Virus record (IMG/VR): IMGVR_UViG_3300036781_000437
Location: 1 to 43,713 of that record
DNA from: a virus
DNA length: 43,713 bases
Strand: one strand, 5' to 3'
The notes below the pieces were generated by a model. It ran no database searches. It was not told the origin of the DNA and was given only the letters and a program-made list of their open reading frames with translations. The stretch's first letter is position 1; every line of letters starts with the position of its first letter. Positions 5,406 through 43,548 of this stretch are shown piece after piece. The position numbers were made by a program, and so were the translations under genes.

Positions 5406-5974
5406 TCACTCCTCCCCTCCGAGCAGCGCCTCCCGCAGCCAGGCCACGCGCCCGCCGACTTCGCCCTCCATCGGCTTCCATGGTGAGAGCGTCGGCGCCT
5501 GTCGGGGTAGCGCTTGATCGCCGCCTGCCACGTCTCGCCCCGCTCGCGGTCGACCAGCTCGACCGTCAGCATCTCGACCCGGTCGGGGTGCTCGCCGAAG
5601 TGATCGACCCACTCGCCCGTCTGCGCCATGAAGCGGTCGGCCGCCTCCTCCGTGCTCTCGCCCTCGCGCATCTTGGAGACGAGCATCCAGCCGTTGATCA
5701 GCAGGGCGTAGCGGAGCGCCTGGCGCTCGCGCAGGAGCTCGGCGAGCTGGTGGAAGACGGCGTCCTTGCGCCCGGGCTGGAAGAGCTCGGGGTCGAGGCC
5801 GTACACCTCGTGCTCGTGCCGCTCGTTCTCCAGGTGGAGCAGGCCCGGCAGCCAGTCGTCGTCGGGGTCGGTGAAGCGCTCGCCGATCGCGACCACGTTG
5901 CGCCGCACCTGCTCGCCGAACACCTCCAGGCTGGGCTCGCGCGTCGGCGGCACGCGCCCCTTCTTGCGGGCCAT
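5406..5974 (-). pseudogene. Hypothetical protein with a probable one-base frame break
   Basis: An ATG at 5974 (one-base overlap with the previous stop) opens a frame with a coherent acidic protein (VAIGERFTDPDDDWLPGLLH, then ALRYALLINGWMLVSKMREG) as far as 'ETWQAAIKRYP'. Beyond that the codons lose their GC-rich third positions. The natural continuation 'PTLSPWKPMEGEVGGRVAWL' with stop at 5406 is in the -1 frame. One extra C at the CCCC run (5504-5507) would restore a single protein of about 189 residues. Either the base is missing from the assembly or the gene is frameshifted. The family resembles conserved actinophage proteins of unknown function. Read as one gene, not two. Confidence 0.55.
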
Positions 5975-7437
5975 CAGCGCGACCGGTCGAGCCGGTTCAC
6001 GTCGAGCCGCTCGGCCCGGCCGAGGCCGGTGTTGTGGACGCCGACGAGCGCCTTCGCGAGCGCGAGCCCGGTCGCCGCCCGGCTGGAGCCGAAGGCTCCG
6101 GCAATGTCCCGCGCCCGGGCGAGGATGAGCAGCGGCCCGGTCGCCTGGAGGAGATCCTGGAAGCGCGGGTCGCGTTCGCTGTCGACGATCTCCTCGTCGC
6201 CGAAGACGGCGTAGAAGCGGGCGAGCCCGCGGATCAGCTCGGCGTCGACCGACTTCTTGAGCCCGGCCCAGGTGCTGCCGATCACGCGCAGCGCAGGCGA
6301 GAGCGTGTCCTCCCGGTGGGGCGAGGGGAGGTCGTAGGCCCACTCCAGCGCGGCGACCGCGCCAACCTCGCCCCGCTCCGAGGCCGTCGCCGCCCTGATG
6401 CGCAGCCCGTGCGCCTCGACCAGCCGGTCGATCTCGACCGCCTTCTCCTCGCCCGAGAGCACGCGAGCCCGGAAGCCGTAGAAGGGGTGGACGCCCTTGC
6501 GGTGCTTGTTCACGCGGTAGAAGAAGCGGGCCTCGGCCGCCAGGTCCATCCCCTCGTAGATCGCGGCGTAGAGACGCTTCTTGCCGACGAGCTGGCAGGC
6601 CCGCCAACGCGTCTGCCCGTCGAGGATCGCGTAGCGCCCGCCCTCGCGCACGCTCACCTCGATCGTCCCGACGAGGCGCTCGTCGAAGTTGAGCACGATG
6701 TCGCGGATGAAGCGATCGCCCGGCGGCCGCTGGTAGCGGTCGTCGGCGAAGCAGGCCTCCAGCGCGATCAGCTCGACCACGAACGGCCACTCCTTGCCCG
6801 CCGGGAGCACGATCTCGCCGAGCGCCCCGCTCGTCTCGATCCCGCGGGCCTTGCGGGCAAGGTCGACGTAGAGCCCGAGCGGGTCGTCCTCGGCCGCGAA
6901 CTCGTTGGAGAGCTGCCAGAGCGCCTCGCGGCTCGCGTCCTTGACGCCGTTCCCGTCCATCACGTTGCGGATCGTGTGCACGGCCGACTCGGGCGTTGGG
7001 AAGACGCCGTTGGAGCTGGCGTGGAGGTAGCGGGCCAGGTCCCAGACGACGCCGGGCGTGTCGGCCCCGATCTTCTTCCACCACGGCTCCATCGCCGCCT
7101 TGAGCTCCAGCGCCTTGCGGCGCCGCTCGTTCGTGGCGACCCGGAGCGCCTCCCGCATCGCGACGATGCCGCGCTGGGAGCTCGGGCTCGGCTTGCTCTT
7201 GCGCTGGCCCTTCTCGCGCAGGACGCCGCTCGCCTGGAGCGCCGTCTCCATCCGCACGACCGCATCCGAGCGCCCCGTCCCGGTCAGGGTGAGGTTCTTG
7301 CCCTGGTACTGGACGAGCCGCCCCTCCGGGTCGAGCACGCGGAAGTGCCCGCCGCCGGTTCGCTCGATCGTGTAGCCGCGCCTCAAGCGCCGCTGCACGT
7401 CACCGAGGTGGCTCGGTAGTTCCTTCGCTGTTGCCAT
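5974..7437 (-). CDS. ParB/Srx-fold protein with HicA-like N-terminus
   Basis: A 487-residue protein. Residues 1-65 resemble the double-stranded-RNA-binding-like fold of HicA ('GYTIERTGGGHFRVLDPEGR', with the Gly-Gly-His seen in HicA toxins). Residues about 235-330 hold a ParB/sulfiredoxin-like domain: 'RYQRPPGDRFIRDIVLNFDE' then 'YAILDGQTRWRAC', the equivalent of the GxHR box, here GQTR. This is the layout of the phage family often called DUF6551 (recalled, not searched). ParB-fold proteins can be nucleases, CTPases or kinases. The rest is helical. ATG 7437 has the site GAGAGGCG. It sits with small genes downstream of the helicase operon. The function is not established from sequence. Confidence 0.7.
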   Translation of the reverse strand: MATAKELPSHLGDVQRRLRRGYTIERTGGGHFRVLDPEGRLVQYQGKNLTLTGTGRSDAVVRMETALQASGVLREKGQRKSKPSPSSQRGIVAMREALRVATNERRRKALELKAAMEPWWKKIGADTPGVVWDLARYLHASSNGVFPTPESAVHTIRNVMDGNGVKDASREALWQLSNEFAAEDDPLGLYVDLARKARGIETSGALGEIVLPAGKEWPFVVELIALEACFADDRYQRPPGDRFIRDIVLNFDERLVGTIEVSVREGGRYAILDGQTRWRACQLVGKKRLYAAIYEGMDLAAEARFFYRVNKHRKGVHPFYGFRARVLSGEEKAVEIDRLVEAHGLRIRAATASERGEVGAVAALEWAYDLPSPHREDTLSPALRVIGSTWAGLKKSVDAELIRGLARFYAVFGDEEIVDSERDPRFQDLLQATGPLLILARARDIAGAFGSSRAATGLALAKALVGVHNTGLGRAERLDVNRLDRSR

Positions 7438-7998: not shown

Positions 7999-9308
7999 GG
8001 CTGCTCGTCCGGGCCGAAGAGTGGGTTGTTCGGATCGTGCCAACCCGACGCAGACCCACGCACACCCTCACCCTCCCCCCCTATAGGGGGGTCGGGAGGG
8101 TGTGCCACTGGCTCTGCTACGCCCGCGCCCTGGGGCACCCTGTCAGACCGTACCCCCCCAAGGGTGCCCGTGACCTCTGTAGCCATGCGGGTTTGCAGGT
8201 TTTCGCCGCCAGAGGCACCCTCGGGCACCCTCGCGATTTCGCCCTCCAAAGGGAGCCGTAGCGAGAATCTGTCAGACCGTCGGCTCTCGTTGACGATTTC
8301 GCCCCTTCCGACGGCCTCCCGCGTGACCTTCGCGAGCCGGTTGCGGGCACCCTGAACGTCGAACTTCACGTCGTCCAAGGAGGCCCGACTGCGCGTCGCG
8401 AGGTACTCCTTCACGCGCCCCAGGAGCTCCTCGTCGCCGACCACTTCGCGGGTCGCGTCGAGCGTCCGGCGCACGTAGCCGAGCGTCTCGACCTGCCACT
8501 CCAGGAGCACGGGCACGCCGAGCTCGTGCGGGTCGGCCGGGCGGGCCTTCTCCAACGTCACCTTGGTCGCCGGGTTCTGGCCGTCCTTCTCCAGGTGGAG
8601 CACGGTGTCGGGGTGCCGCGCCCAGTCGCCCGACACCATCCCGTTCTTGTTGGAGTGGTGCGCGGTGATGATCCCGAGGTCGTCCCAGAGGCCGAAGCCC
8701 CGGAGCATGTGCTTGAACTCCTCCGTCTCCTGCGGCGACCCGGCCCCGCTCGTACCGAGCGTGTGCAGCGGGTCGAGCGCGAGGTAGTCGGCGCCGAAGT
8801 CGCGGACGAAGGCGTGGGCGTGCTCGACGATCGAGGCGTCCCGGAAGGTGAACTCCCCCCACGGCGAGACGTAGATCGCGAGGTTGTCGAGCACGAGCTC
8901 CGAGTCGCCCGACCAGAGCTCGATCTTCTGCCGGAGCTTGTCCTGGAGCCCGCCGGGGATGCCCTCGTTGACGACGGCAACGACGCGCAGCGGCCGGGCC
9001 ACCGGGTAGAGCAGCCAGTCGAGCCCGGCGCAGGCGTGGAAGAGCAGGTCGACGAGGACGCTCGTCTTGCCCGAGCCCTCGCGGCCCCACGGCATCACCC
9101 AGCCGTAGCGCGGCAAGAGGTTCGTCCCATCGCGGGTCGAGCCCATCAGCGACTCGGCGGGCGGCAGCTCGCGGCGCAGGAACTCGCGCAGCGTCTCAAA
9201 CAGGATCGCCTCGAGCTCGTCCGTCGGCGGCGGCGGGGCGGTGCCGTTCGCCGCCAGCCCGCGGATCAGCGAGACGAGCTGCTCGACGGTGGGCTCCTCC
9301 TCGCTCAT
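7995..9308 (-). CDS. RepA-like AAA ATPase/helicase
   Basis: A 437-residue P-loop ATPase. Walker A is GREGSGKT at 75-82, Walker B hydrophobic-D at about 175-180 (YLALDP), and a sensor-like 'TAHHSNKNG' at about 212-220. This RecA-fold layout matches the RSF1010 RepA-type hexameric helicases (AAA_25) common in phage replication modules. Residues about 310-370 read as a winged-helix-type segment (SLDDVKFDVQGARNRLAKVT). The C-terminal 70 residues are Gly/Pro-rich and are encoded by DNA full of repeats. It likely acts at the phage origin as the replicative or initiator helicase. The gene is followed by two small zinc-protein genes in overlap. Confidence 0.8.
   Translation of the reverse strand: MSEEEPTVEQLVSLIRGLAANGTAPPPPTDELEAILFETLREFLRRELPPAESLMGSTRDGTNLLPRYGWVMPWGREGSGKTSVLVDLLFHACAGLDWLLYPVARPLRVVAVVNEGIPGGLQDKLRQKIELWSGDSELVLDNLAIYVSPWGEFTFRDASIVEHAHAFVRDFGADYLALDPLHTLGTSGAGSPQETEEFKHMLRGFGLWDDLGIITAHHSNKNGMVSGDWARHPDTVLHLEKDGQNPATKVTLEKARPADPHELGVPVLLEWQVETLGYVRRTLDATREVVGDEELLGRVKEYLATRSRASLDDVKFDVQGARNRLAKVTREAVGRGEIVNESRRSDRFSLRLPLEGEIARVPEGASGGENLQTRMATEVTGTLGGVRSDRVPQGAGVAEPVAHPPDPPIGGEGEGVRGSASGWHDPNNPLFGPDEQP
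8061..8104. repeat. 44-bp interrupted palindrome inside the helicase gene
   Basis: Outer arms CACACCCTC (8061-8069) and GAGGGTGTG (8096-8104) enclose an inner perfect stem CCCCCC-TATA-GGGGGG (8076-8091). The encoded segment is low-complexity (PPDPPIGGEGEGV), so protein constraint does not explain the symmetry. It lies next to the iteron-like repeats and could be a hairpin of the replication origin or an RNA control element. Confidence 0.7.
8133..8353. repeat. Iteron-like GGGCACCCT repeats
   Basis: GGGCACCCT occurs at 8133-8141, 8223-8231 and 8345-8353, inverted at 8161-8169, and as GAGGCACCCT at 8212-8221. Two further repeats are interleaved: CTGTCAGACCGT at 8140-8151 and 8269-8280, and CGATTTCGCCC at 8234-8244 and 8294-8304. 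All lie within the last third of the helicase gene. Repeats next to a RepA-like gene suggest an origin with initiator-binding sites; function is inferred. Confidence 0.6.
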
Positions 9309-9580
9309 GCGAGCGGGTTGTCCTCGTCCGCGGCCGGGACGGGGATCGTCAGCATGCGCTCGTAGGCCCGGCTCGACATGATCCCCATCGCCCGCTCGTA
9401 GTTCGCCTGCATCGCCCGGCGCCCGCTCGCCTCGGCCTGGTAGGCGTCGATCAGCTCGCCGACGTCGCGAGCAACGAGGCGACAGCGCCGGGCGTGCTCG
9501 GCGTTCGTCTCCTCGTAGCCGTCGGCCCAGGCCCACAGCTCGCGAGCTCGCGTGGCGATCGCCTCCAGGTCGGGCGCCAT
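9305..9580 (-). CDS. Hypothetical helical protein upstream of helicase
   Basis: A 91-residue, mostly helical protein (LEAIATRARELWAWADGYEE, then ARRCRLVARDVGELIDAYQA) whose stop overlaps the helicase start by ATGA. Tight coupling to the helicase suggests a replication accessory role such as a loader or regulator, but no motif supports a specific call. The start ATG is 3 bases after the stop of the directionality-factor gene. Confidence 0.55.
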   Translation of the reverse strand: MAPDLEAIATRARELWAWADGYEETNAEHARRCRLVARDVGELIDAYQAEASGRRAMQANYERAMGIMSSRAYERMLTIPVPAADEDNPLA

Positions 9581-9583
9581 CGG

Positions 9584-10804
9584 CTAGTAGCCCGGCGGGA
9601 ACTCGTTGTAGTGCGCCCTGGCGGCGGCCTCCTCCTCGGGAGAGGGCTCCGGCGGCGCCTGCGGCTCCGTGGAGGAGCTCGTGCGCTTCGCCAGGCCCGC
9701 CAGCCTGTCGAGGAGCTGGACGGCCTCCGGGCGGCTCAGGGACTCCCGCAGCGGACTCCAGTGGAGCACGAGCTCCGAGTCGTAGGCGCCGAGCTCCAGC
9801 ACGAGGTCCTCGCCCGCCTGGCCGCGCATCTTCGCGACGGCGTCGTAGAGGTGCCGCTTCTCGATCGCGCCGTTGTTGACGAGCTGGACGACGAGGATGT
9901 CGGCCTTCGTCTTCATCGCCTTGCTCGCCTTCGCGATCTGCGCGAGCTCGGGCGGCTCCGGCGGCGGCGGGGCGTCGGGCTCGGGCGGCTCGGGCTCGGG
10001 CGGCACATCGCCGCCCTCCACGTCGTCAGGCCCGAACGCCGCCGCCCGCCTGCCCTGTTGAGCCTGGGGCGGCGAGCCGACGGCGGTCAGGGCCTGCTCG
10101 ATCGTCGGACTGCGCCTGGCCGCGGGCACGAAGCCCGCCGGCGGAAGCGCCCGCGAGTCGTCGGGCTGCGCGGGCGCCGCCAGCGCCAGGTAGCCGACGC
10201 CGAGGTCGAGCGTCGGGACGACGAAGCGGACGACCTGGCCGTCCTTGACGCCGCGACGCTGGTCAAGTCGAAGCTTGCTCGGGACGAAGGAGGAGCCGCC
10301 GCGGGCCTCCATCAGCGCGAACATCGTCGGCAGCTCGTGCGCCGCGTTCGCCCCGCGCGTGATCAGGCGCCAGCCCAGGACGGTGTCCAGCTCGGGCAGA
10401 GCGACGACGAGCCTTGTGTACAGATCGCACTTGTCTTGCCCCTCCGCGTTGCAGATGCAAGGGCCTCCGGTCAGCTCCTCGTCGACACCGTCGCAGAGGC
10501 GCATCCGCTTGGTCGCGCCCTCCCAGAGCTCGTAAGTCTGCCGCAGGGAGTAGCTCGGCATCACGAGCACCGGCAGCTCCTCGGCCTCGGTGTAGAGCTG
10601 CCACTCCTCGCCCGTCGGCGACTGCCACTTGGACACGTCGCCGCCGTAGAGCGAGGCGGCCTGCTCGAGGAGCTGGCGCCGCGGCGATGTGAGCCGGAAG
10701 GCCTCCAGCTTGCGGCCGGGCGCCTTCGGCTGCTTCTCTCCTCCTGCGCGGATCGCGCCGACGATGGTCAGGCGGCGTTGGAGCATGATGATCGCTTCGG
10801 GCAC
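9584..10804 (-). CDS. phiC31 Gp3-like recombination directionality factor
   Basis: A 406-residue protein. The N-terminal half (about 10-220) matches the Gp3-like family. It shows 'LQRRLTIVGAIRAGG', 'FRLTSPRRQLLEQAASLYGG' with 'DVSKWQSPTGEEWQLYTE', a Cys cluster (RLCDG...GPCIC...DKC) and later 'SKLRLDQRRGVKDGQVVRFV'. In phiC31, Gp3 binds the serine integrase and switches it from integration to excision; this phage also encodes a large serine integrase at 17147. The C-terminal half is an acidic Pro-rich linker (about 255-290) and a helical domain, making it longer than Gp3 (about 244 residues). Start GTG 10804 has the site GAGAGGAGGCGATC. 10805-10898 upstream shows no gene. Confidence 0.75.
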   Translation of the reverse strand: MPEAIIMLQRRLTIVGAIRAGGEKQPKAPGRKLEAFRLTSPRRQLLEQAASLYGGDVSKWQSPTGEEWQLYTEAEELPVLVMPSYSLRQTYELWEGATKRMRLCDGVDEELTGGPCICNAEGQDKCDLYTRLVVALPELDTVLGWRLITRGANAAHELPTMFALMEARGGSSFVPSKLRLDQRRGVKDGQVVRFVVPTLDLGVGYLALAAPAQPDDSRALPPAGFVPAARRSPTIEQALTAVGSPPQAQQGRRAAAFGPDDVEGGDVPPEPEPPEPDAPPPPEPPELAQIAKASKAMKTKADILVVQLVNNGAIEKRHLYDAVAKMRGQAGEDLVLELGAYDSELVLHWSPLRESLSRPEAVQLLDRLAGLAKRTSSSTEPQAPPEPSPEEEAAARAHYNEFPPGY

Positions 10805-10898
10805 GATCGCCTCCTCTCGTAGTTGGGCGAACCGAGCCGAGCCCCGCTCTGCCATGACGAGCGCTGCCCAGCAAGACCCGGCTCTGGTACGCCCTGCT

Positions 10899-11402
10899 TC
10901 ACGTCGAACGTTCTGCCAGCGTCTCGACTGCGGCCGCGACGAGCTCGACAGCCCCGCGCAGCTCCTGGTACTGCTCGTACCGGGCCTGCCAGCCGAGGAG
11001 CTCGCGCTCGGCCCTCACGACGATCTGGTCGGCCAACTCGGGCGAGGCCCAGACGACCCGTTCGGACACGTACGCCCGCTCGGCCCTCCCTTGCCCTCGC
11101 AGGGTGACGTTGTGGAAGGCCCGCGTGCGCTGCTCGCCGCTCGCGGTGAAGCGGATGACGGCGATCGAGCGCAGGATGCCTCGGGCCTGCGCCAGTCGGT
11201 GCTCGTGGGCCGCCCTCGCATCGTCCCAGTCGAAGTAGCGGTGGAGCGGCGAGCGCGAGGACTGCGCCATCTTGACGATGGCCTCGGGGTCGATCGGCCC
11301 GTCGCGGAAGCGCTTGTCGAGGAGCTCCCCGATGCGCTGCGCCTCCTCGTCGGTGTGCAAACCCGAGACGCCCGCGACGACGCGGTACTCAGTCGAGCTC
11401 AC
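10899..11402 (-). CDS. Conserved phage hypothetical protein
   Basis: A 167-residue protein. GTG 11402 lies in a GTGA overlap with the upstream stop. The mid-region 'YFDWDDARAAHEHRLAQARG' then 'ILRSIAVIRF' resembles phage proteins usually found in recombination/replication gene blocks, without a defined function. The C-terminus is a long helix (ERELLGWQARYEQYQELRGA). The large in-frame extension upstream belongs to antisense of the neighbour and was rejected. It follows the 227-residue protein and probably works in the same complex or pathway; that is inference. Confidence 0.6.
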   Translation of the reverse strand: MSSTEYRVVAGVSGLHTDEEAQRIGELLDKRFRDGPIDPEAIVKMAQSSRSPLHRYFDWDDARAAHEHRLAQARGILRSIAVIRFTASGEQRTRAFHNVTLRGQGRAERAYVSERVVWASPELADQIVVRAERELLGWQARYEQYQELRGAVELVAAAVETLAERST

Positions 11403-12082
11403 GAGAGCTCCTCCACGCTCTTCACGCGAGCACGGCCGAAGCTCCCGGACTTGTTCTTCGGGGCGGACGGGCGCCATTCGCCGATGCCGCCGCAGAAGAG
11501 GCCGAGGTCCATGATCGCGACCACCTGCTCGAGCGAGACGGTGCGGGCGTTGAAGCTGACGAAGAGCTCGCACGACCAGTCGGTGAACTCGGGCCGGTAC
11601 ACGGGCTGGGTCGGGTTGCGGCCGATGTCGGTGCGCAGGACGACCCCGGAGAAGTCGAGCACCGGGTCGCGGTCGACGAAGAGCCAGCCGGTCGCCTTCG
11701 TCTTCGGGATGCGCTTGTCGTCGAGCTGCGACACGCCGTAGAGGAACGCGTGCTTGAACGCCGAGGCCGGGTGGAAGTACTTGCCCGGCTTCCAGTCGAT
11801 CAGCTCCTCCTTGCCGGGGACGATGTACGCGGCGGCAACCCACTCCTCGTCGGGCACGCGGGCCGTCTTCTGCTGCATCGCCTTGCCGGTCTGCTTGCCC
11901 TCGATCTGTGCGAGTGCCTTCTTCGACCACTGGTGCTGGATCAGCCCCGAGATGCCGACGATGTTGAGGATCGCCTGGCGCATCTCCAGCTCGGGGATCG
12001 CGATCTCGCGAATGTCTTCGACGACGGCGGGCTTCTCGGTCTTCGCCGCCGCCTTGGTCTTCGGTACTGCGGTCGTAGCCAT
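11399..12082 (-). CDS. Conserved phage protein, possible recombination partner
   Basis: A 227-residue protein with an Ala/Lys-rich leader (1-25) and a compact domain. Distinctive stretches are 'LIQHQWSKKALAQIEGKQTG', 'WKPGKYFHPASAFKHAFLYG', 'YRPEFTDWSCELFVSFNART' and 'GLFCGGIGEWRPSAPKNKSG'. The last part recalls a conserved phage family I know only as hypothetical, often encoded near exonuclease or recombinase genes. Start ATG is preceded by AGCAGGAGGAGCGTAACCAAC. It is separated from the exonuclease block by the pentamer tract. A strand-annealing or single-strand-binding partner of the exonuclease is a position-based guess only. Confidence 0.6.
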   Translation of the reverse strand: MATTAVPKTKAAAKTEKPAVVEDIREIAIPELEMRQAILNIVGISGLIQHQWSKKALAQIEGKQTGKAMQQKTARVPDEEWVAAAYIVPGKEELIDWKPGKYFHPASAFKHAFLYGVSQLDDKRIPKTKATGWLFVDRDPVLDFSGVVLRTDIGRNPTQPVYRPEFTDWSCELFVSFNARTVSLEQVVAIMDLGLFCGGIGEWRPSAPKNKSGSFGRARVKSVEELS

Positions 12083-12113
12083 GTTGGTTACGCTCCTCCT
12101 GCTAGTTGGGTGG

Positions 12114-12827
12114 TTACACGGGCGGGGCCGTTTGAGCGACCCCGCCCGAGCTTGTAGGTGCCTGCCGTGCCTCGCCCAGCCACGCGCCGCCTTGCGCTGC
12201 CGTGCCGCCCCTCACCGTGCCTGCCATGCCAAGCCCTGACCGGCTCCGCGGTGGGTTGCCGCGTCGTGTGCTGCCCTGTCGAGTCGTGCCGTGCCCGCCT
12301 TGCCTTGCCGGGCTCTGTCGAGCCCGGAGCGGAAGCGCCATGCCGAGCCCGCCGTGCCGAGTCTCGCCAAGCCAAGCCTTGCCCCGCCACGCCGTACCCT
12401 GCCCAGCCTTGCCCGCCCAGTCTTGCCATGCCGCACCCAGCCACGCCCGGCCGCACCACGCCAGGCCCGACCGCGACCTGACCGGCGGTGCCCCGCCCTG
12501 ACGGGCCTTGCGCGTCCATGCCCGCCGTTCCAAGCCGAACCGCGCCCGGACACGCCGTGCCGAGTCGCGCCACGCCACGCCGGACTCTGCCGCGCCTGGA
12601 GTCGCCATGCCCGCCTTGCCTCGCCTGGCTGCGCCAAGCCAAGCCGCGCCCGGAGACGCCGTGCCGAGCCCTGACGCGCCCGCCCTGCTTCGCCGCGCCG
12701 AGCTCTGTCCCGCTGGGGCGTGCTCTGACACGCCTGGAAATGCCGTGCCCGCCTCGCTGTGCAGTGATACGCCCTGCCCAACCCGGGCACGCCCGGACGA
12801 GCCGGGACTAGCCTTGCCTGGCGTCAC
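12114..12827 (-). CDS. Low-complexity open frame across the pentamer tract
   Basis: A 237-codon frame that starts at GTG 12827 in a GTGA overlap with the upstream stop, the same coupling used by real genes here, and ends 31 bases before the next gene start. The predicted product is Ala/Gly/Arg/Trp-rich with a five-residue rhythm (examples: AWCGRAWLGAAWQDW, GTAWRGKAW). Because the DNA repeats every 5 bp, all three leftward frames are open over most of the tract and give similar peptides, so an open frame alone is weak evidence. It could be a true repetitive protein or a chance opening across a non-coding element. Confidence 0.25.
   Translation of the reverse strand: MTPGKASPGSSGRARVGQGVSLHSEAGTAFPGVSEHAPAGQSSARRSRAGASGLGTASPGAAWLGAARRGKAGMATPGAAESGVAWRDSARRVRARFGLERRAWTRKARQGGAPPVRSRSGLAWCGRAWLGAAWQDWAGKAGQGTAWRGKAWLGETRHGGLGMALPLRARQSPARQGGHGTTRQGSTRRGNPPRSRSGLGMAGTVRGGTAAQGGAWLGEARQAPTSSGGVAQTAPPV
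12119..12148 (-). terminator. GC-rich hairpin at the downstream end of the tract
   Basis: CGGGCGGGG (12119-12127) pairs perfectly with CCCCGCCCG (12140-12148) around a 12-base loop. It lies where leftward transcripts leave the pentamer tract, 37 bases before the next ATG. There is no U-run beyond GTGTAACC. It may be a terminator or attenuator, or a 3' end for a tract-encoded RNA. Confidence 0.5.
12161..12815. repeat. Degenerate pentanucleotide tract (GGCNN on -, NNGCC on +)
   Basis: About 650 bp can be read largely as 5-bp units ending GCC on +. In 12366-12415, nine of ten consecutive units begin GCC. Typical runs are GCCAA-GCCAA-GCCTT and GCCAC-GCCGT. Longer blocks recur, such as CGCCGTGCCGAG (12350, 12554, 12657 areas) and ATGCCCGCC (12528 and 12607 areas), so the tract grew by duplication of larger pieces as well. 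An internal perfect hairpin CCGGGCTC-tgtc-GAGCCCGG is at 12308-12327. It lies between two leftward recombination-region genes. Function unknown. Confidence 0.8.
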
Positions 12828-13051
12828 AGCATCGCCTCCTGTCCGAGGAGCCCGGCCTTCGCCGAGCTCACGCAGGCTGCGTGCGCGAACTCAGGCCGCG
12901 TCTCGCGTAGGCGAATGTCCGAGCCGCCGTGCTTGCCCGAGGCCCGGACGCCCGCGATGTGCTGCCAGCCGACAACGCGCTGCCAGGTGGACGAGGCGAG
13001 CGGGTTGACGGGCTCGCCGCAGAAGGGGCACGTCGCCTCGACCCCGGCCAT
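12824..13051 (-). CDS. Small zinc-binding phage protein
   Basis: A 75-residue protein from ATG 13051 (a GTG at 13054 is also possible). It begins with a zinc knuckle, CPFCGEPVNP at about 8-17. Then come 'TWQRVVGWQHIAG', 'GGSDIRLRE' and 'FAHAACVSS', so two Cys, one His and one Cys could bind zinc. The pattern CxxCGxPV...WxRVxGWE...GG...I.LRE...AHxxC is one I recall in many actinophage hypothetical proteins, often in recombination blocks. It overlaps the upstream stop and its own stop overlaps the GTG of the tract frame. Confidence 0.65.
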   Translation of the reverse strand: MAGVEATCPFCGEPVNPLASSTWQRVVGWQHIAGVRASGKHGGSDIRLRETRPEFAHAACVSSAKAGLLGQEAML

Positions 13052-13380
13052 CACTCCTCCTCGGCGCCGTCGAAGAAGACGTCCGAGACGACGAGGCTCT
13101 TCGTCTCCACGATCGCATCGACGTAGCCCTCGGAGTCGCGGCGGTGGCGCTTGCGCGAGCCCGCGACGTGGCAGGTGACGACGAGCTCGGCCTCCTCGCC
13201 CGCCCGCAGGCCGTTGTAGTACTTCACCTGCTGGGCGTTCGTGCGGTCGAGCTCGAGCGAGCCCGAGAACGCGAGCTTGAGCACGCTCGGGTCGGCCTCG
13301 TCCAGGACAACCGCGATCCTCGGCACTTCAAACAGGCGCCCGTCGCCGGGGCTCTGGTCTTCCACTGCGGCCACGCTCAT
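13051..13380 (-). CDS. Conserved hypothetical protein next to exonuclease
   Basis: A 109-residue, strand-rich protein (RIAVVLDEADPSVLKLAFSG, AELVVTCHVAGSRKRHRR, VDAIVETKSLVVSDVFF). The start ATG overlaps the exonuclease stop by ATGA, so it is translated with the nuclease. Mixed beta strands and an acidic end (GAEEE) would suit a small OB-type or inhibitor/accessory fold, but I do not recognise a family. Likely part of the same recombination unit. Confidence 0.6.
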   Translation of the reverse strand: MSVAAVEDQSPGDGRLFEVPRIAVVLDEADPSVLKLAFSGSLELDRTNAQQVKYYNGLRAGEEAELVVTCHVAGSRKRHRRDSEGYVDAIVETKSLVVSDVFFDGAEEE

Positions 13381-14213: not shown

Positions 14214-14383
14214 CGCGCCGCCCTCGGCGGCTTCTGGTCGAAGCAGCCCGGACAGAGCCACGGGCCTCGCGACCGAGCTGCGCCGCAGTGCAGCCGCGCT
14301 CCGCAGTCCGAGCAGGCCCGGAAGCCGCGGTAGGCGGCCCAGGCCTTCCAGGCCTGGAGCGCTTGCCGTTCAAGCGTCGTCAC
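14210..14383 (-). CDS. Small zinc-ribbon protein
   Basis: A 57-residue protein that starts at GTG 14383, overlapping the methyltransferase stop (GTGA), and ends in a GTGA overlap with the exonuclease. An N-terminal helix (LERQALQAWKAWAAYRG) precedes two Cys knuckles: CSDCGARLHCG and CPGCFDQKP. This is a compact zinc ribbon. The function is unknown; the position between methyltransferase and nuclease suggests DNA metabolism. Confidence 0.6.
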   Translation of the reverse strand: MTTLERQALQAWKAWAAYRGFRACSDCGARLHCGAARSRGPWLCPGCFDQKPPRAAR

Positions 14384-15328
14384 GTCGTCACCTCCGAGAA
14401 GTCGAGAAGCCAGCGGCCCGCGGCCGTGGCGCACTGCACCTGGACGGCGTTGCCGAGCATCCGCAGCCGGGCCGTCCGCCGGTTGCCGGTCGTCCAGCCG
14501 TGCGGGAGGCCGAGCATCCACTCGACGAACTCGGGCATCAGGCCTCCTCGATCGTCAGTTGGCCTGGGAGCGGGGCGGCCGAGCTCTCGCTCCCAGCGGC
14601 GGATGGCGGGCTCGTAGCGGCCCCAGTCGACCGCCGCGGGGTCGTACTCCCGCCCGTGCGGAAGAGGTCGGAGAGCGAGACGCCCGGGTTCGCCGCCGAG
14701 CCCGGCAGGTTGCGGCTCCCGGCCGACTTCGCATCCCCTGCCGTCGGCGTCGGCAGGAGCGCCAGCGCCTCCTCCAGGTGCGGGCCGCCGTCCGCGTTCG
14801 CGCTGCGGTACTGGCCGCCCCGGTCCGCGTAGCTCGCCGTCGGCGTCGGCAAGAGCTCCGGCGATGAAGACTCTCCAGCGGAGGTGAGGCGCTCCGACGT
14901 CGACAGCTCGCAGGCGGTCGTACCGCCACCGGTAGCCGAGTAGGGCCAGGTCACCGACCACATCTCCGATGAGGCCGGAAGCAATGAGGCCTGGGACGTT
15001 CTCCAGGAGCACGAGTCGAGGTCGAAGTACGCGAAGGCATCGCGCGATCTCAGGCCAGAGCCAGCGCTCGTCATCCGCGCCGCGTCGGGCTCCGGCCTGG
15101 GAGGCGGGCTGGCAGGGGAAGCCTGCGACCACAAACGTCGGCGGCGATGCCTCGCCGCTCCCAGTCGACGGCCCGCAGGTCGCCGAGGTTGGGGACGTCG
15201 GGCCAGTGGCGGGCGAGGATGAGCGAGCAGGCGCGATCGTTCTCGGCCTGGGCGACGAAGCTCCAGCCGAGGAGCTCGAGGCCGAGGTCGAGCCCGCCGC
15301 AGCCCGAGCAGAGGGAGAGGGCTCGCAC
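14380..15328 (-). pseudogene. DNA cytosine-C5 methyltransferase with three one-base frame breaks
   Basis: The C5 motifs are all present but in different frames. Frame A from GTG 15328 has motif I 'LSLCSGCGGLDLGLELLGW' and ends 'RRGIAADV'. Frame B has 'VVAGFPCQPAS' (motif IV, catalytic Cys), 'LVLLENVPGLI' (motif VI), 'DVGAPHLRWRVFIAG' (motif VIII), and later 'MLGLPHGW' and 'MLGNAVQVQ' (motif X). Frame C holds the variable target-recognition part, 'LLPTPTAGDAKSAGSRN' and 'PGVSLSDLFRTGG'. Switches fall at 15133-15135, about 14858-14861 and 14649-14651. Third-position GC follows these frames, so coding was under selection until recently. It would make 5mC, the substrate for the TET-like enzyme at 42111. 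Either decaying or mis-assembled. Confidence 0.75.
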
Positions 15329-37949: not shown

Positions 37950-39449
37950 CTACTGCGGTGGTGGTGGCCCGCCGGCGGCGCCGGTTGGCGGCGTCCCGGC
38001 CGGGGCGGGAGTCGGCTCGCCCGTTGGGGCGGCGGCCGTCTGCGACGCCGTGGTCGACTGGAGCATCTCGCGGGCCGTCGCGGCCTGGGCCTGGGCGGCG
38101 GCCACGAGCTCGGCCTCCCGGGCCGACTCGGCGAGCGCCTCCATCTCGGTGATCTGCTCGGGCGTGTAGCCGAGCTCCAGCCAGATCACCGGCAGCGGCA
38201 CGCCGAGCGTCCGCTTCTTGACGGCCGCATCGACGAGCTGGCCCTGCGCGATCCGCTCCGGGTTGGCCCAGATCGCCTCGCACTCGGCCGTCTCGACGGC
38301 CGTGCCGGAGGCCTGGAGCGCGAGCGCCATCGCCTCCTCCCAGGGGTCGGAGAAGAAGAGCGTCTTCGACCGGCACTTCGACACGAGCCCGGCCTCGGCC
38401 ACCGAGAGCGCGTCGCCGCTCATGTTCACGAGCTTGGCGAGCAGGTAGTGCGGCGGCGTCCGCGTCTGGGCGGCGAGGTGGGTCACGAACATCTCGATCG
38501 CGTTGACGAAGTTGGAGAGGTCGGCCGCGGCCAGGTCGGTCACGCGGGCGTCGGCGGGCTTGAACGTCCAGAGGCGGCTCATCGCCGCCTTCATCTCGGC
38601 CTGCGCGAGCGGCTGGCCCGTCTCCGGGTCCTTCGGCACCTCGACCCCGGTCACGACCCGCTGCGGGAAGGCGCCGTACTCGCTCGTCACGATCATGTCG
38701 GTGCAGAGCTTGTTGATCGCGTTCTGGAGCGGGATCGCGGGCTCCAGGTCGGAGTGGGCCACGCCGAGCACGCCCGGCTTGTTCTCCAGCGGGATCACCG
38801 GCACGACGCCGAGCGGGTTGCTCACCTCGGCGAGCTCGCCCGAGCGCGGCACCCAGACCGTCTCGCCGAGGCGAGCTCGAGGAGCGTCGACCGACTCGGC
38901 GCTCTCGTACTTGAGCACGACGTCGGGCAGGTAGAGCGTCAGGTACTGGAAGCCGTCGTCGCCGAGCCAGCGCTTCGCGGCGGCGAGCCGGTGGCGCCGG
39001 TTGGCCGGGTCGTGCGCGACGATCACCTGCGAGGCGTGCTCGACGGTGATCAGCGGCTCGCCCTCGTTCGGGTCGACGAGCAGGAAGGCCCGCCCGTTCT
39101 TGCCCGCCTCGGTGTGCGCGATCACGCTCTCGACGTCGAGCCCGTTCGCCTGCCAGAGCGCCCAGGCCTCGTCGGCCACCTTCTCGTTCACCCGGAAGCC
39201 GACCACGCGCAGCCGCTCGACGGCGGCGTCGACCACGATCTGGCACCAGTTGTCGGCGAAGGCCGAGAAGAGGGCGCCGAAGGCCTCGCGGAACTTGGAC
39301 GTCGCGAACTGGAGCGGGTGGCGCCCGTCGTAGTAGCTCTCGTAGAACTCGGCCTCCAGGGCGCGGTGGTCGAGCTGCGGGAGCAGGAAGCCCCGCCAGT
39401 CTTCGGGCGTGCGCTGGGCCTCGCGTGGGAGGCGGGCGACTGTACTCAC
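37950..39449 (-). CDS. Portal protein
   Basis: A 499-residue protein from GTG 39449 (GTGA overlap with the terminase). Pattern of SPP1 gp6-type portals: 'YYDGRHPLQFATSKFREAFG' (clip/stem start), 'VVDAAVERLRVVGFRVNEKV', 'VVPVIPLENKPGVLGVAHSD', 'LQNAINKLCTDMIVTSEYGA' (stem helix), 'RTPPHYLLAKLVNMSGDALS' and a Pro/Ala-rich tail. It forms the dodecameric channel for DNA packaging and joins the head to the adaptor. The long in-frame opening upstream to 40646 is antisense of terminase and was rejected. Confidence 0.9.
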   Translation of the reverse strand: MSTVARLPREAQRTPEDWRGFLLPQLDHRALEAEFYESYYDGRHPLQFATSKFREAFGALFSAFADNWCQIVVDAAVERLRVVGFRVNEKVADEAWALWQANGLDVESVIAHTEAGKNGRAFLLVDPNEGEPLITVEHASQVIVAHDPANRRHRLAAAKRWLGDDGFQYLTLYLPDVVLKYESAESVDAPRARLGETVWVPRSGELAEVSNPLGVVPVIPLENKPGVLGVAHSDLEPAIPLQNAINKLCTDMIVTSEYGAFPQRVVTGVEVPKDPETGQPLAQAEMKAAMSRLWTFKPADARVTDLAAADLSNFVNAIEMFVTHLAAQTRTPPHYLLAKLVNMSGDALSVAEAGLVSKCRSKTLFFSDPWEEAMALALQASGTAVETAECEAIWANPERIAQGQLVDAAVKKRTLGVPLPVIWLELGYTPEQITEMEALAESAREAELVAAAQAQAATAREMLQSTTASQTAAAPTGEPTPAPAGTPPTGAAGGPPPPQ

Positions 39450-40906
39450 AGGAAGGCGTACTCCCCTCGGTCGAGCTCGCTCGCCGCGATCGCATCGCAG
39501 CGGGCCTCGTAGGCCAGGACGGCGGCGACGGCCGCATCGATCTTCTCGGCGGCGGCTCCCTTGTCGAGCCAGTAGCCGCCGCGCACCTCGCGCATCTGGG
39601 CGTTCAGGACGTGCCGCGTGAGCACCTCCGAGCCCGTGTGCGGGATGCCCTCGCCGAGCAGATCGGTGCGGAAGCGCTCGACGGCGCCCATGAAGCGCGA
39701 GCGGTTGGTCGGGTAGCGCGTGACGGCCGGGTCGCCGTACTCCCTCGCCCAGCCGTCGATCTCGCTCTGCCAGAGTGGCGGGTCGAAGTAGCCGCGGACG
39801 ACGGCGTACTCCTCCATCGCCTCGGCGATGGCCCGGTCGACCTCGCCCGTGGGCACCTCCCAGGCGCCGCCTCCTCGCGGTGCCTCCCAGACGCCGAGCG
39901 GCTGGAGCAGGCCGTCCTCCAGGCGACAGGCAACGAGCGCCGTCGAGTCGCCGTAGCGGGAGCCGTCGAAGCCGAGGGCGATCTTGTCGCCGGGCTCGAG
40001 CTCCTCGGTCGCCGCGGCCAGGTGCCAGATGTCGGGCGCCATCCAGAGCCCGCCCGCCCCGGTCCAGATGCCGCAGACGAAGCGGCGCCACTCCCACGGC
40101 AGCGTCGAGGGCGAGTCGTGCGCCTGCGCGAGCTTCTCGACCGTCTGCCAGCTCGCGGGGTTCACCTCCTTCACGAGCTCGATCGAGTCCGGGTCGTCTT
40201 CGGCGTCGAGCGCCCACTCGTGCAGGGCGAAGCCGTTGTCGAGGCTGCGGGCGTAGGTGTAGCGGCCCTCGCGCTCCAGGTGCGGGAGCTGGTAGGCGGC
40301 CTGGCGCGTGTGCCCGAGCGGGCTCGTGACGCTCTCGCCCGCGACGGAGATGGCGACCATCTGCCCGTCGCGCGGGCCGAGTCCGTGCCGGAAGATCGCG
40401 TAGAGCTCGGCCGAGCGGTGGCGCCCGAGCTCGTCGACCAGGGCGAGCGTCGGGATGATGCCGTCGGCCGTGTCGACGTCCGCCGCGAGCACCCGGATGC
40501 GGCCCGAGTCGCGGCGGCTGCGGATCTGCCGGTAGCCACCCTTGACGACCACCCGGCGCTGGAGGAACTCGGACCGCTTGACGAAGCCGGAGGCCTGCTC
40601 GTAGAGGATCGAGGCCTGGTCGCGCGAGGTGGCCCCGATCACGCACTCGGCGTCGCCCGTGGTGATCAGGTGGTAGAGGGCGAGGGCGCCGAGGAGGGTG
40701 GTCTTGCCGTTCTTCTTCGACAGGAGGACGAGCGTCTCGACCACACCCGCGAAGTAGTCGGCGAGCATCCGCCGCTGGAAGGGCTCCAGCTCCATCGCCT
40801 TGCCGTTCTCCAGCGTGAGCGCCTGGCAGAAGCGGGAGAAGCCGTCAAGAGCTGCGGCGGACTCGGCGCTCGGCGAGCTCGTCGAACTCGGTGAACGGGT
40901 CGTCAT
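39446..40906 (-). CDS. terL: Terminase large subunit
   Basis: A 486-residue packaging ATPase/nuclease. ATPase part: 'VVETLVLLSKKNGKTTLLGA' (Walker A variant, KKNGKTT), 'CVIGATSRDQASILYEQASG', 'IPTLALVDELGRHRSAELYA' (Walker B VDELG). Nuclease part (about 310-470): 'GDKIALGFDGSRYGDSTALV' with a metal-binding Asp, 'VRGYFDPPLWQSEIDGWARE' and 'EKIDAAVAAVLAYEARCDAI' with the final Asp. The class cannot be read alone; the nearby HNH gene would fit cos packaging. ATG 40906 lies 62 bases inside the small-subunit gene. Confidence 0.93.
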   Translation of the reverse strand: MTTRSPSSTSSPSAESAAALDGFSRFCQALTLENGKAMELEPFQRRMLADYFAGVVETLVLLSKKNGKTTLLGALALYHLITTGDAECVIGATSRDQASILYEQASGFVKRSEFLQRRVVVKGGYRQIRSRRDSGRIRVLAADVDTADGIIPTLALVDELGRHRSAELYAIFRHGLGPRDGQMVAISVAGESVTSPLGHTRQAAYQLPHLEREGRYTYARSLDNGFALHEWALDAEDDPDSIELVKEVNPASWQTVEKLAQAHDSPSTLPWEWRRFVCGIWTGAGGLWMAPDIWHLAAATEELEPGDKIALGFDGSRYGDSTALVACRLEDGLLQPLGVWEAPRGGGAWEVPTGEVDRAIAEAMEEYAVVRGYFDPPLWQSEIDGWAREYGDPAVTRYPTNRSRFMGAVERFRTDLLGEGIPHTGSEVLTRHVLNAQMREVRGGYWLDKGAAAEKIDAAVAAVLAYEARCDAIAASELDRGEYAFL

Positions 40907-41381
40907 CGGGCGCCTCCTCGGGCTTCTCGTCGGGTGGCGCCTCCTGACGCAGGCGGACGCTCGGCTTGCCGTAGCGGACTGGGGCGATGCGCTCGAGGAG
41001 CCAGGCCGCCGCCTGCCAGCTCTCCCGCGAGGCCTTCGTGATCTCGTTCACGAGCACGACCTCGGCCTCTGCCTGCGCCCGCTGCACGCGCTCGCGCAGC
41101 TCGGCGAAGGGAACGTCCTCGGCCTTGCCCGAGCGGCCCCGCTGCATCCACTCGCGGTAGGTGCGCGAGGCGACGCCGACAGCCCGCAGCGCCACCGGCA
41201 GGTAGGCGCCCGCCCGCAGCATTGCGACGAGCCGGTCGGCGAGGGCGGCGTCGAGGTTCGTCTTGCGGCCGACGAGCCCGGCGTGCACCTGGCAGCGGTC
41301 CGAGCCCTGCATCGCCGGGTTGCGACAAGGAGCGCCGGCGGCCGTGGGCTGACTACACGGTGGTCGCTTGGGGCTGGACAA
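40845..41381 (-). CDS. terS: Terminase small subunit
   Basis: A 178-residue protein, with the only plausible start a TTG at 41381 (site CGGAGATGCGGC). N-terminal zinc motif: 'CSQPTAAGAPCRNPAMQGSD' then 'RCQVHAGLVGRK' (C-x7-C, C-x2-H). The middle is a helix-turn-helix, 'LPVALRAVGVASRTYREWMQ', followed by 'RAQAEAEVVLVNEITKASRE' (assembly helix) and an acidic tail. It recognises the packaging start site and hands DNA to TerL. Overlap with the glycosyltransferase gene is 29 bases. Confidence 0.8.
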   Translation of the reverse strand: MSSPKRPPCSQPTAAGAPCRNPAMQGSDRCQVHAGLVGRKTNLDAALADRLVAMLRAGAYLPVALRAVGVASRTYREWMQRGRSGKAEDVPFAELRERVQRAQAEAEVVLVNEITKASRESWQAAAWLLERIAPVRYGKPSVRLRQEAPPDEKPEEAPDDDPFTEFDELAERRVRRSS

Positions 41382-42114
41382 GCCGCATCTCCGGGAAGCC
41401 GTAGCGCTTGGTGCGCCCGCGGCGCACGAGCTCGGGCCAGCGTCCCTCGATCGCCGCGATGTTGCGCTCGACGCGGGCGAGCGTGCGCCCGAGCCGGTCG
41501 CCGTTCGGGCCGGGACGGTAGTAGGCGGTGAGCGGGCAGACGTAGTCGAGCCGGACGACGACGCCGTCGCGCTCCCAGTAGCGGAGCGTGCGCTCGTAGT
41601 CCTCCTTCGGATCGCCGAAGCGCGGGTGGAGCTCCTCCTCGTGGCGGACGAGCGTGCCGTAGAAGCAGCCGATGCAGTAGCTCAGGTCGGCCCGGACGCG
41701 GGGCTTCATGTAGAAGGCGTTCGCCGAGGGGTAGATGCCCCAGAGGTGCGAGCCCGCCTGCTCGCAGAGGCCGAAGCCCTCCTCTGCCACCTCGGCGAGC
41801 GACACCGGCTCCATTCGCTCGCGGCTGACGAGGCGGCGCAGGCCGCGGAGGTCGTCGTCGAGCCAGAGCACGCGCTCACCCTCGGCGAAGTAGCCGTGCG
41901 CCAGGCGGCGGGCGTTCTGGAGCCCGCGCTCGGCGACGAAGAGCCGCTCGGCCCAGGCGGGGCAGGCAGTCGCGTAGCGCTCGCGCTCGGCCTCGTCGGC
42001 GACGAAGAGCCACACCCGCTCGGGCGCGAGCTCGGTCTCCTCGACCAAGCGCAAGGTCTGGCGCCCGATGAGCGCCGCGTGATCGTAGGTCGGGACAACG
42101 ACGCTCCAGCTCAC
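41353..42114 (-). CDS. GT-A-type glycosyltransferase, probable DNA base modifier
   Basis: A 253-residue protein from GTG 42114 (GTGA overlap with the TET-like gene). Features: the N-terminal nucleotide-sugar site 'WSVVVPTYDHAALIGRQT', 'RLFVAERGLQNARRLA', and the metal/nucleotide DxD as 'RVLWLDDDLRGL' (86-88). A later acceptor region follows, 'YCIGCFYGTLVRHEEELHPR' and 'FGDPKEDYERTLRYWERDGV' with acidic residues that could be the catalytic base. The GT-A order of a small cytoplasmic enzyme and its one-transcript pairing with a TET/JBP-like oxygenase suggest it attaches a sugar to the oxidised cytosine in phage DNA. The donor is unknown. Confidence 0.75.
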   Translation of the reverse strand: MSWSVVVPTYDHAALIGRQTLRLVEETELAPERVWLFVADEAERERYATACPAWAERLFVAERGLQNARRLAHGYFAEGERVLWLDDDLRGLRRLVSRERMEPVSLAEVAEEGFGLCEQAGSHLWGIYPSANAFYMKPRVRADLSYCIGCFYGTLVRHEEELHPRFGDPKEDYERTLRYWERDGVVVRLDYVCPLTAYYRPGPNGDRLGRTLARVERNIAAIEGRWPELVRRGRTKRYGFPEMRLVQPQATTV

Positions 42115-42932
42115 GATGGGGCGAAGCGCCGCCGCTCGCGCTCGGTGCGCCGCCGGGCCGAGGCCTGGACGATCTCGGCCTTCGTGTCGCAGCGCCACAT
42201 CTGCTGGAGCGAGTAGAAGACGACCGAGTAGCGGTAGCCCTCGGGGCGGACGAAGCGGAAGGGTGAGACGCCGTGGAGGATCGCCTGGCCGTCGAACATG
42301 AAGAGCGAGTGGTCGCGGAGCCGGAAGCAGAGCCCGAGCTCGGGGCAGACGAGGTCGCCGCCTTGGCAGCTCGCCTTGAAGACGAGCATGTTCGACCAGC
42401 ACTCGGGGAAGTTGCCGCCGTCGAAGTGGTAGGGGAGCTTGTTGTTGTAGTTGACGATGCCCGAGGTGAAGACGCCGCCCGAGAGCCGCCACTCGGGCAA
42501 CACCTTCGCGACCGTCGCGGCGTGCTCGGCGTAGGCCTCGGCGTTGTGCTCGCGGTACTCGCGCTCGACCACCTCGGCGAGCCCGGCGATGGTCGAGTGG
42601 GCGGCGGGCGCCTCGCGGGCCAGCTTCGCCTCGTCGCACGTCTCGCGGCCGCGGCTCACGATCGGCGGGGCGTAGCCGAAGGTGCGCGAGGTGGAGGGGA
42701 GGCCGCGCAGGCGGTAGCCGGTCGAGTAGCGGAGCGAGCGCAGCGCCGCAACGGCGTTCGGCTGGCGCTCCTCGAGCTCGACGTAGACGACCGAGGGCTG
42801 CTCGGCTCCGTCGACGTAGACGGCGCAGGGCTCGGCGAGCTCGGCCTCGACGTGGCTCGCGTCGGCGAAGGCACCGCGGTAGGCGGCGACGTCGACCGGG
42901 CGGCGCTCGACCTCAAGCCGCCGCAGCGACAA
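42111..42932 (-). CDS. TET/JBP-like 2-oxoglutarate/Fe(II) DNA dioxygenase
   Basis: A 273-residue protein from TTG 42932 (site GGTGGAGAGCG); the stop of the ParB gene lies just inside. The double-stranded beta-helix shows its iron ligands: 'LPYHFDGGNFP' (H169-x-D171), 'DGQAILHGVSPF' (H220), and the 2-oxoglutarate Arg in 'EGYRYSVVFYSL' (R234). Conserved flanks are 'GIVNYNNKL', 'SNMLVFKASCQGGDLVCPEL' and 'SLFMFDGQ', as in TET/JBP-type phage enzymes. It would oxidise 5-methylcytosine to 5-hydroxymethylcytosine on DNA after replication. A 5mU-oxidising (JBP) role is the alternative. Operon partner of the glycosyltransferase. Confidence 0.8.
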   Translation of the reverse strand: MSLRRLEVERRPVDVAAYRGAFADASHVEAELAEPCAVYVDGAEQPSVVYVELEERQPNAVAALRSLRYSTGYRLRGLPSTSRTFGYAPPIVSRGRETCDEAKLAREAPAAHSTIAGLAEVVEREYREHNAEAYAEHAATVAKVLPEWRLSGGVFTSGIVNYNNKLPYHFDGGNFPECWSNMLVFKASCQGGDLVCPELGLCFRLRDHSLFMFDGQAILHGVSPFRFVRPEGYRYSVVFYSLQQMWRCDTKAEIVQASARRRTERERRRFAPS

Positions 42933-43548
42933 CGCTCTCCACCACCTCGGAGTACGTCTCCAGCCCGAGCCGCTCGGCGATCGCATCGAGCTGGGCGACC
43001 ATCCGCTCGTAGCGCTCCTTGTCGAAGGAGAGGAGGATGCGGAAGACGGTGGCGCCGTCGAGCGTCTGGCCGTTCGGCGTCGCGAAGCGCGGGGCGACGA
43101 TCTCCAGGGCGCCGACGTTCAGGTAGGCGAGGAGCGAGTCGACGTCGTCTCCGGTGTAGCCGATGCCCTCCAGGCGGTCGGCCTGCTGGAGTGGCAGAAG
43201 CAGGGCCGCGAGCTCGGCGTCGTCGTAGAGGCCGAGGTCGGCCAGGCGGTTGTCGGCGAGCAGGTAGGCCTCGACCTCGGAAGCGGTCAGGTCGGAGCGG
43301 ACGGTGGCGACGTGGCTCCAGTCGAGCGCGAGCGCCGCCCGCCAGACGTGGTGCCCGGCGACGAGCGTGCCGTCGGGCAGGGCGAGGAGCGGCCGCTGTT
43401 GCCCGAAGCGGCGCAGACTCTTGACGATCTCCTCGACCACGCCGCGGCGCGGGTTCTTCGGGTGCGGCCGGAGCTCGCCGACCGAGACGAGCATGCCGTC
43501 GAGCGAGCCGTTGCCGTACCAGACGATCGAGGTCGTGGCCTCGGCCAT
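42913..43548 (-). CDS. ParB-fold protein at the head of the modification/packaging operon
   Basis: A 211-residue protein with the ParB/Srx N-terminal fold: 'VSVGELRPHPKNPRRGVVEE', 'IVKSLRRFGQQRPLLALPDG', 'TLVAGHHVWRAALALDW' (the GxHR-type box, here GHHVWRA) and 'EVEAYLLADNRLADLGLYDD'. The C-terminal 60 residues are a separate helical part (FDKERYERMVAQLDAIAERL). Phage proteins of this kind occur next to DNA methyltransferases and modification enzymes and may be nucleases, CTPases or kinases. The ATG has AAGGAGGCAAGC. It is the first gene after the palindrome cluster at 43570 and overlaps the oxygenase start. Confidence 0.75.
   Translation of the reverse strand: MAEATTSIVWYGNGSLDGMLVSVGELRPHPKNPRRGVVEEIVKSLRRFGQQRPLLALPDGTLVAGHHVWRAALALDWSHVATVRSDLTASEVEAYLLADNRLADLGLYDDAELAALLLPLQQADRLEGIGYTGDDVDSLLAYLNVGALEIVAPRFATPNGQTLDGATVFRILLSFDKERYERMVAQLDAIAERLGLETYSEVVESVVAAAA

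Follow-up and report, generated by a model that had tools for sequence, protein, structure and literature searches.

The locus examined here raises the question of what a TET/JBP-type oxygenase does in a phage genome, and what part is played by the ParB-fold gene that lies in front of it. The window, meaning the whole stretch of DNA analysed, is the entire 43,713-base IMG/VR record IMGVR_UViG_3300036781_000437, a linear record of a bacterial virus with a G+C content of 71.6%. On its minus strand, from position 43548 downward, genes for a ParB-fold protein, a TET/JBP-type dioxygenase, a glycosyltransferase, the terminase small subunit (TerS), the terminase large subunit (TerL) and a portal protein follow one another, each overlapping or abutting its neighbour. 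On balance, we favour the reading that the genes preceding TerS form a phage DNA-hypermodification cassette, in which oxidation by the TET-type enzyme and glycosylation by a TET-associated glycosyltransferase (TAGT) would be assisted by the ParB-fold protein, with its ribbon-helix-helix (RHH) tail, as a dedicated adaptor.

The features named in a preliminary description of this DNA were confirmed at the place given there, and they lie on the minus strand. The TET open reading frame (ORF) overlaps the ParB ORF by 20 nt, the glycosyltransferase start (GTG 42114) overlaps the TET stop (42113-42111) as GTGA, and TerS overlaps the glycosyltransferase gene by 29 nt. These ORF overlaps suggest translational coupling in the cassette.

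The oxygenase (273 aa) is encoded at 42111 to 42932 on the minus strand. Its best start is the TTG at 42932, which gives exactly the residues H169, D171, H220 and R234 that had been named beforehand; an alternative upstream start, ATG 42986, exists, and the extension it would add is not conserved. The Tet_JBP profile PF12851 matched with 38.3 bits against a curated cut-off of 34.9 (E=1e-9), and the oxygenase profile also reaches CMD1 by sequence (E=0.003). With the start codon uncounted, H168, D170, H219 and R233, which represent the HxD...H iron triad and the arginine that binds 2-oxoglutarate, were found to be invariant in 26 TET homologues. The AlphaFold model (pLDDT 92.7) was nearest to TET2 (Z 20.2), NgTET1 (19.6) and CMD1 (19.1), all above FTO (15.3), and on this model the window oxygenase belongs to the TET/JBP fold, as the preliminary description had proposed, rather than to a fold outside it. 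A single-protein scan of IMG/VR using the window TET gave no matches, and alignment queries were needed instead. The public records of three mycobacteriophage TETs (L002:809-1687, L009:855-1787 and L012:813-1691) carry the label 'queuine tRNA-ribosyltransferase/DpdA', which was rejected as apparently a misannotation. The eukaryotic TET and JBP enzymes are believed to descend from phage enzymes of this type.

The glycosyltransferase gene (41353 to 42114, minus strand) encodes the GT-A type enzyme with a DDD motif that had been described. Its product matched the TAGT profile PF20691 with 29.8 bits, above the curated cut-off of 27.5 (E=7e-7), and contains the metal motif WLDDD, in which two Asp residues were invariant among six TAGT-like proteins and the third position was Asn in one. 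PF20691 is a DNA-glycosyltransferase family with activity documented in T6-type phages (PMC13216743). Because the oxygenase has the TET/JBP fold and the glycosyltransferase is a member of PF20691, the best reading of the predicted cassette product is a sugar-bearing hypermodified pyrimidine. A ParB gene followed by a TAGT or TAGT-like glycosyltransferase before TerS, without TET, was also seen in L126 (765-1646) and in L099-L101.

The association of ParB with TET was examined in two IMG/VR sets of 80 TET contigs each, the second distinct from the first and collected with TETs of cultured actinophages as seeds; some contigs within both sets are close relatives of one another. In the first set, a ParB-fold ORF was found directly upstream of TET on the same strand in 74 of the 80 contigs and in every one of the 55 having at least 2.6 kb of upstream sequence, and the six contigs without ParB all end less than 1.2 kb upstream of TET. 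A strict overlap rule counted 63 in the second set, and 13 of the misses that it listed have ParB immediately upstream with overlapping ORF limits (in L208 ParB runs on into the TET ORF through a frame artefact), so that 76/80 carry ParB directly upstream on recount; the other four begin at the contig edge. Taken together, ParB is directly upstream in 150 of 160 TET contigs, and the remaining ten are truncated on that side. The ParB-TET linkage is thus near-obligate.

The ParB-fold protein of the window (42913 to 43548, minus strand; 211 aa) matched PHROG 620/723 at E~4e-28, but Pfam ParB_N gave only 18.2 bits, under its cut-off of 26.3. Of the profile searches that the preliminary description had put forward (Tet_JBP, GT families and ParB), those for Tet_JBP and, among the glycosyltransferases, TAGT gave scores above the curated cut-offs, and the ParB assignment was borne out by PHROG and not by Pfam; the Tet_JBP, TAGT and PHROG matches all far exceed chance. 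The AlphaFold2 model (pLDDT 84.8) has an N-terminal ParB-CTPase fold, a low-confidence linker with helices, which may include a reduced helix-turn-helix (HTH)-like region, and an RHH-like C-terminus. The N-terminal domain (residues 14-105; 43234 to 43509, minus strand) superposes over 86 residues on 7bnr, the M. xanthus ParB with CTP-gamma-S bound (Z 11.2, rmsd 1.5). The C-terminal piece (residues 166-211; 42916 to 43053, minus strand) matches CopG, NikR and MazE9 (Z ~5, rmsd ~2 over 40 residues; for CopG 1ea4, Z 5.3, rmsd 1.8 over 40 aa). A Z of ~5 alone is modest, and the modelled C-terminus is assigned as an RHH domain with the support of its sequence pattern and specificity.

The specificity is evident in a de-replicated set, in which the RHH tail was present in 31/36 TET-linked ParBs and in 0/17 non-TET ParBs; TET-linked ParBs supplied the sequences for the tail profile, but it also scores in cultured phages that were not used to train it. 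Three of the five exceptions are near the threshold and have the same visible pattern, that in L032 is an artefact of the positional filter, and an extra ParB in L066 is truly tailless. L066 is a 327 kb contig that has, at 9099-13343, two tandem ParB-TET pairs together with this further ParB.

Relatives of the window identified through the terminase have a modification slot directly before TerS, the contents of which vary. The slot holds ParB-TET-TAGT in the window, ParB-ParB-TET-C5-methyltransferase-TAGT in L014, ParB-TET-C5-methyltransferase-FkbM in L150 and ParB-TET-FkbM in L015, and without TET it holds ParB-C5-methyltransferase in L125 and L127 and ParB-TAGT in L126. ParB is fused to an N6/N4 methyltransferase in the slot of L142, and likewise, with weaker Pfam support, in that of L107. 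ParB occupies the slot in all 25 terminase relatives with a modification gene (15/15 when de-replicated) versus 3/13 of those without, and the three latter ParBs belong to other ParB families; the p value of 2e-5 is indicative, as the contigs are related (relatedness was not fully removed) and it was profiles and motifs that decided what counted as a modification gene. The FkbM-type methyltransferases, located in the operon after TET or the C5-methyltransferase (L015:1524-2219, L150:8723-9499), suggest O-methylation of a hydroxymethyl base.

The same constancy of ParB-TET was found in cultured phages, where it is followed by TAGT and a PIG-L (GlcN) deacetylase in Indlovu and Altadena, and by ADDT and a P-loop kinase in CloverMinnie and Tonitrus. 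In L016 (9378-13187), the order ParB-TET-ADDT-PLP enzyme-P-loop kinase resembles thymidine hypermodification enzymes with TET in front. Other combinations were observed in Arthrobacter phage Kovu (L172:230-6502), where TerS is preceded by three ParB-type genes and a PAPS-reductase-like one, and in Microbacterium phage NoodlelyBoi (L173:3950-6131), with ParB, glycosyltransferase and UDP-glucose dehydrogenase genes consecutively.

Gene identity, predicted folds, catalytic residues, the near-obligate ParB-TET linkage and the specificity of the RHH tail are directly supported; the enzymatic activities, substrate base, sugar, protective role and adaptor mechanism we infer as follows. The RHH tail of ParB would dimerise and bind phage DNA, and the ParB-fold head, possibly in a nucleotide-dependent manner, would load or hold the modifying enzymes on it. 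The TET/JBP enzyme would then oxidise the 5-methyl group of a pyrimidine, likeliest 5-methylcytosine, to 5-hydroxymethyl in phage DNA, and TAGT would attach a sugar to the 5-hydroxymethyl base, both steps being predicted because of family membership. The sugar modification would protect phage DNA from host nucleases. A broader proposal, which we advance tentatively, is that phage TETs do not act by themselves but have an obligate partner in a dedicated ParB-fold/RHH clamp, which would load them on the DNA or scan it, and that ParB heads with swappable tails may be a general platform for interchangeable modification chemistries (TET, C5- and N6/N4-methyltransferases, glycosyltransferases).

Several observations weigh against this scheme, the first of them concerning the adaptor. 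That role is suggested by linkage, tail specificity and methyltransferase fusions. The single apparent ParB-TET fusion, in L208, is a frame artefact and was rejected, as ParB and TET are two ORFs in four close relatives, and L208 itself encodes the missing RHH tail in another frame. Box II of the window ParB is AGHHVWRAA, without the canonical GERR arginine, and near relatives are alike; tested homologues depend on this arginine to bind NTP (PMC12704722). Marine TET-linked ParBs keep the arginine (GGNMRLRA); as Box II varies among TET-linked ParBs, nucleotide use is not predictable, which is likewise the case for the ParB fold in general (PMC12704722).

The remaining contrary observations concern the methylation step. 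A pathway by way of 5-methylcytosine would call for an intact C5-cytosine methyltransferase in the genome, and the window holds only a frame-broken copy (14380 to 15328, minus strand; PF00145 and frame analysis), which has motifs I, IV-VIII, TRD and IX-X but not in one frame. This copy adjoins RusA ~27 kb from the cassette, and nothing else in the record is a candidate for the methylation step. The other conserved window genes showed no genuine split on the same strand, which speaks against attributing the breaks to indel errors throughout the genome; a local assembly error is possible, as is a host methyltransferase supplying 5-methylcytosine. A C5-methyltransferase was also not detected in the nine cultured ParB-TET phages by PF00145 or phrog_363, with positive controls matched, or in L104, a 43.6 kb relative, with phrog_363. 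The cultured-phage search had been repeated with phrog_363 because PF00145 misses the divergent L014 C5-methyltransferase, which it gives 16 bits, below the cut-off. The window C5-methyltransferase was sought in 36 terminase relatives in a search without a positive control, and none was found. Enzymes related to it, split into two ORFs, are present in Gordonia phages Upyo and Float294.

As the window C5-methyltransferase is broken and none was found in L104 or the nine cultured phages, a JBP-like oxidation of thymine is a serious rival. Here the TET would generate 5-hydroxymethyluracil for glycosylation by TAGT, giving a phage base J analogue for which no methyltransferase is needed. ADDT and the P-loop kinase, carried by several ParB-TET cassettes, are enzymes of thymidine hypermodification, which is consistent with a thymine substrate. 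However, the relatives nearest to the window, L014, L122 and L150, with TETs 65-69% identical to the window TET, have an intact C5-methyltransferase inside the operon, and cytosine-derived bases are the acceptors reported for TAGTs to date (PMC13216743). A thymine substrate is therefore a possibility to be taken seriously but not the one we would choose, and 5-methylcytosine is the most likely substrate of the TET, a preference that we hold with some reserve. The hypermodified cytosine of the preliminary description thus stands as a predicted sugar-bearing pyrimidine and has the support of the methyltransferase in the nearest relatives, but its identification as cytosine is weakened by the broken window gene and by the cultured phages.

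The main alternative to the adaptor role is that ParB attacks host DNA as a nicking nuclease or NTP-consuming effector, or that it regulates the operon via its RHH tail. RHH proteins are often repressors, and DndB has been described as a ParB-fold regulator. Nuclease or NTPase activity has been reported for several ParB-fold proteins, including a nicking ParB-methylase (PMC5512222). Against such functions stand the near-obligate, specific linkage to modifying enzymes across chemistries and the methyltransferase fusions in relatives, and we regard them as unlikely for this protein.

The dispersal of the C5-methyltransferase motifs over different frames could also be taken to mean that the methylation step has been lost and that the pathway is inactive in the window phage. 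This is improbable, given that the ORFs of ParB, TET and TAGT are unbroken and catalytic residues are conserved, that host 5-methylcytosine or thymine could serve as substrate, and that the breaks may reflect either local misassembly or a split enzyme of a kind that exists in phages. Assignment of ParB to terminase packaging, with its adjacency to TET incidental, is largely refuted and very improbable: terminase genes follow the cassette in the window and many relatives, but ParB is mostly missing from that slot in terminase relatives that have no modification gene, and in Arthrobacter phage Altadena the ParB-TET-GT-deacetylase cassette (38.7-42.1 kb) lies ~37 kb along the record from the terminase (0-1.9 kb), so that ParB goes with modification and gene order gives no timing, leaving the earlier idea that the base is installed just before packaging unsupported.

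The terminase genes that follow the cassette in the window encode TerS (40845 to 41381, minus strand; PHROG 4102, E=2e-25) and TerL (39446 to 40906, minus strand; PF03354, E=7e-17; PHROG 9, E=8e-73). The window also encodes a serine integrase, a repressor-like HTH protein and a recombination-directionality-factor-like protein, and the virus is therefore probably temperate. A further gene at 5974-7437 on the minus strand encodes a DUF6551 protein with an additional match to a ParB-like PHROG; DUF6551-ParB fusions have been reported to bind CTP or ATP (PMC12704722).

TET with TAGT is already a known kind of phage DNA hypermodification, to which the window adds a member. Phage cytosine-hypermodification clusters of TET, C5-methyltransferase and glycosyltransferase were reportedly described by Burke et al. 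in 2021 and Pyle et al. in 2024, and the TAGTs characterised there are said to act on cytosine-derived bases. The window shares with these clusters the TET/JBP dioxygenase and the TAGT-family enzyme, and its nearest relatives share also the operon C5-methyltransferase, but in the window that gene is 27 kb off and frame-broken, and ParB-RHH precedes the TET. The order ParB-TET-GT is found as in the window in Mycobacterium phages Indlovu and PRodriguez and in Arthrobacter phage Altadena, with TETs only 30-33% identical to the window TET. Unlike the window, these three phages add a PIG-L type deacetylase and have no detectable C5-methyltransferase; Indlovu also adds a P-loop kinase, the equivalent of which is annotated as adenylate kinase in PRodriguez, and the window cassette is without these.

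ParB has been associated with DNA methyltransferases, with function unknown, as N6/N4 methyltransferase fusions and as ParB beside CmoX (PMC12704722, PMC12783734). The preliminary description had held a ParB role in such a pathway to be undescribed, which is correct as to function but not as to the association, which is published. Those systems likewise pair a ParB-CTPase fold with a DNA-modifying enzyme, whereas the window ParB stands on its own, ends in an RHH tail and has a TET dioxygenase as partner. Chromosomal and plasmid partition ParBs have the same N-terminal ParB-CTPase fold, but the window ParB differs in its C-terminal RHH and in lacking the Box II arginine, and no ParA-type match was found among the window proteins scanned. 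The DndDE core of phosphorothioation, an NTPase and RHH DNA-scanning module, has been reported to serve interchangeable modifications (PMC10853773); the parallel is conceptual only and no homology is claimed, as DndDE uses an ABC ATPase fold and a separate RHH protein.

No description of the near-obligate TET-ParB pairing, the specific RHH tail or the chemistry swap behind a constant ParB was found in the literature covered, which excludes Burke 2021, Iyer 2013 and Pyle 2024. The role of ParB domains in phage DNA-modification systems is an open question in the literature (PMC12783734), and the ParB-RHH finding makes it testable. If the proposed role is true, a conserved partner of virtually every phage TET found here would change how TETs are assayed, and could explain the targeting of the modification.

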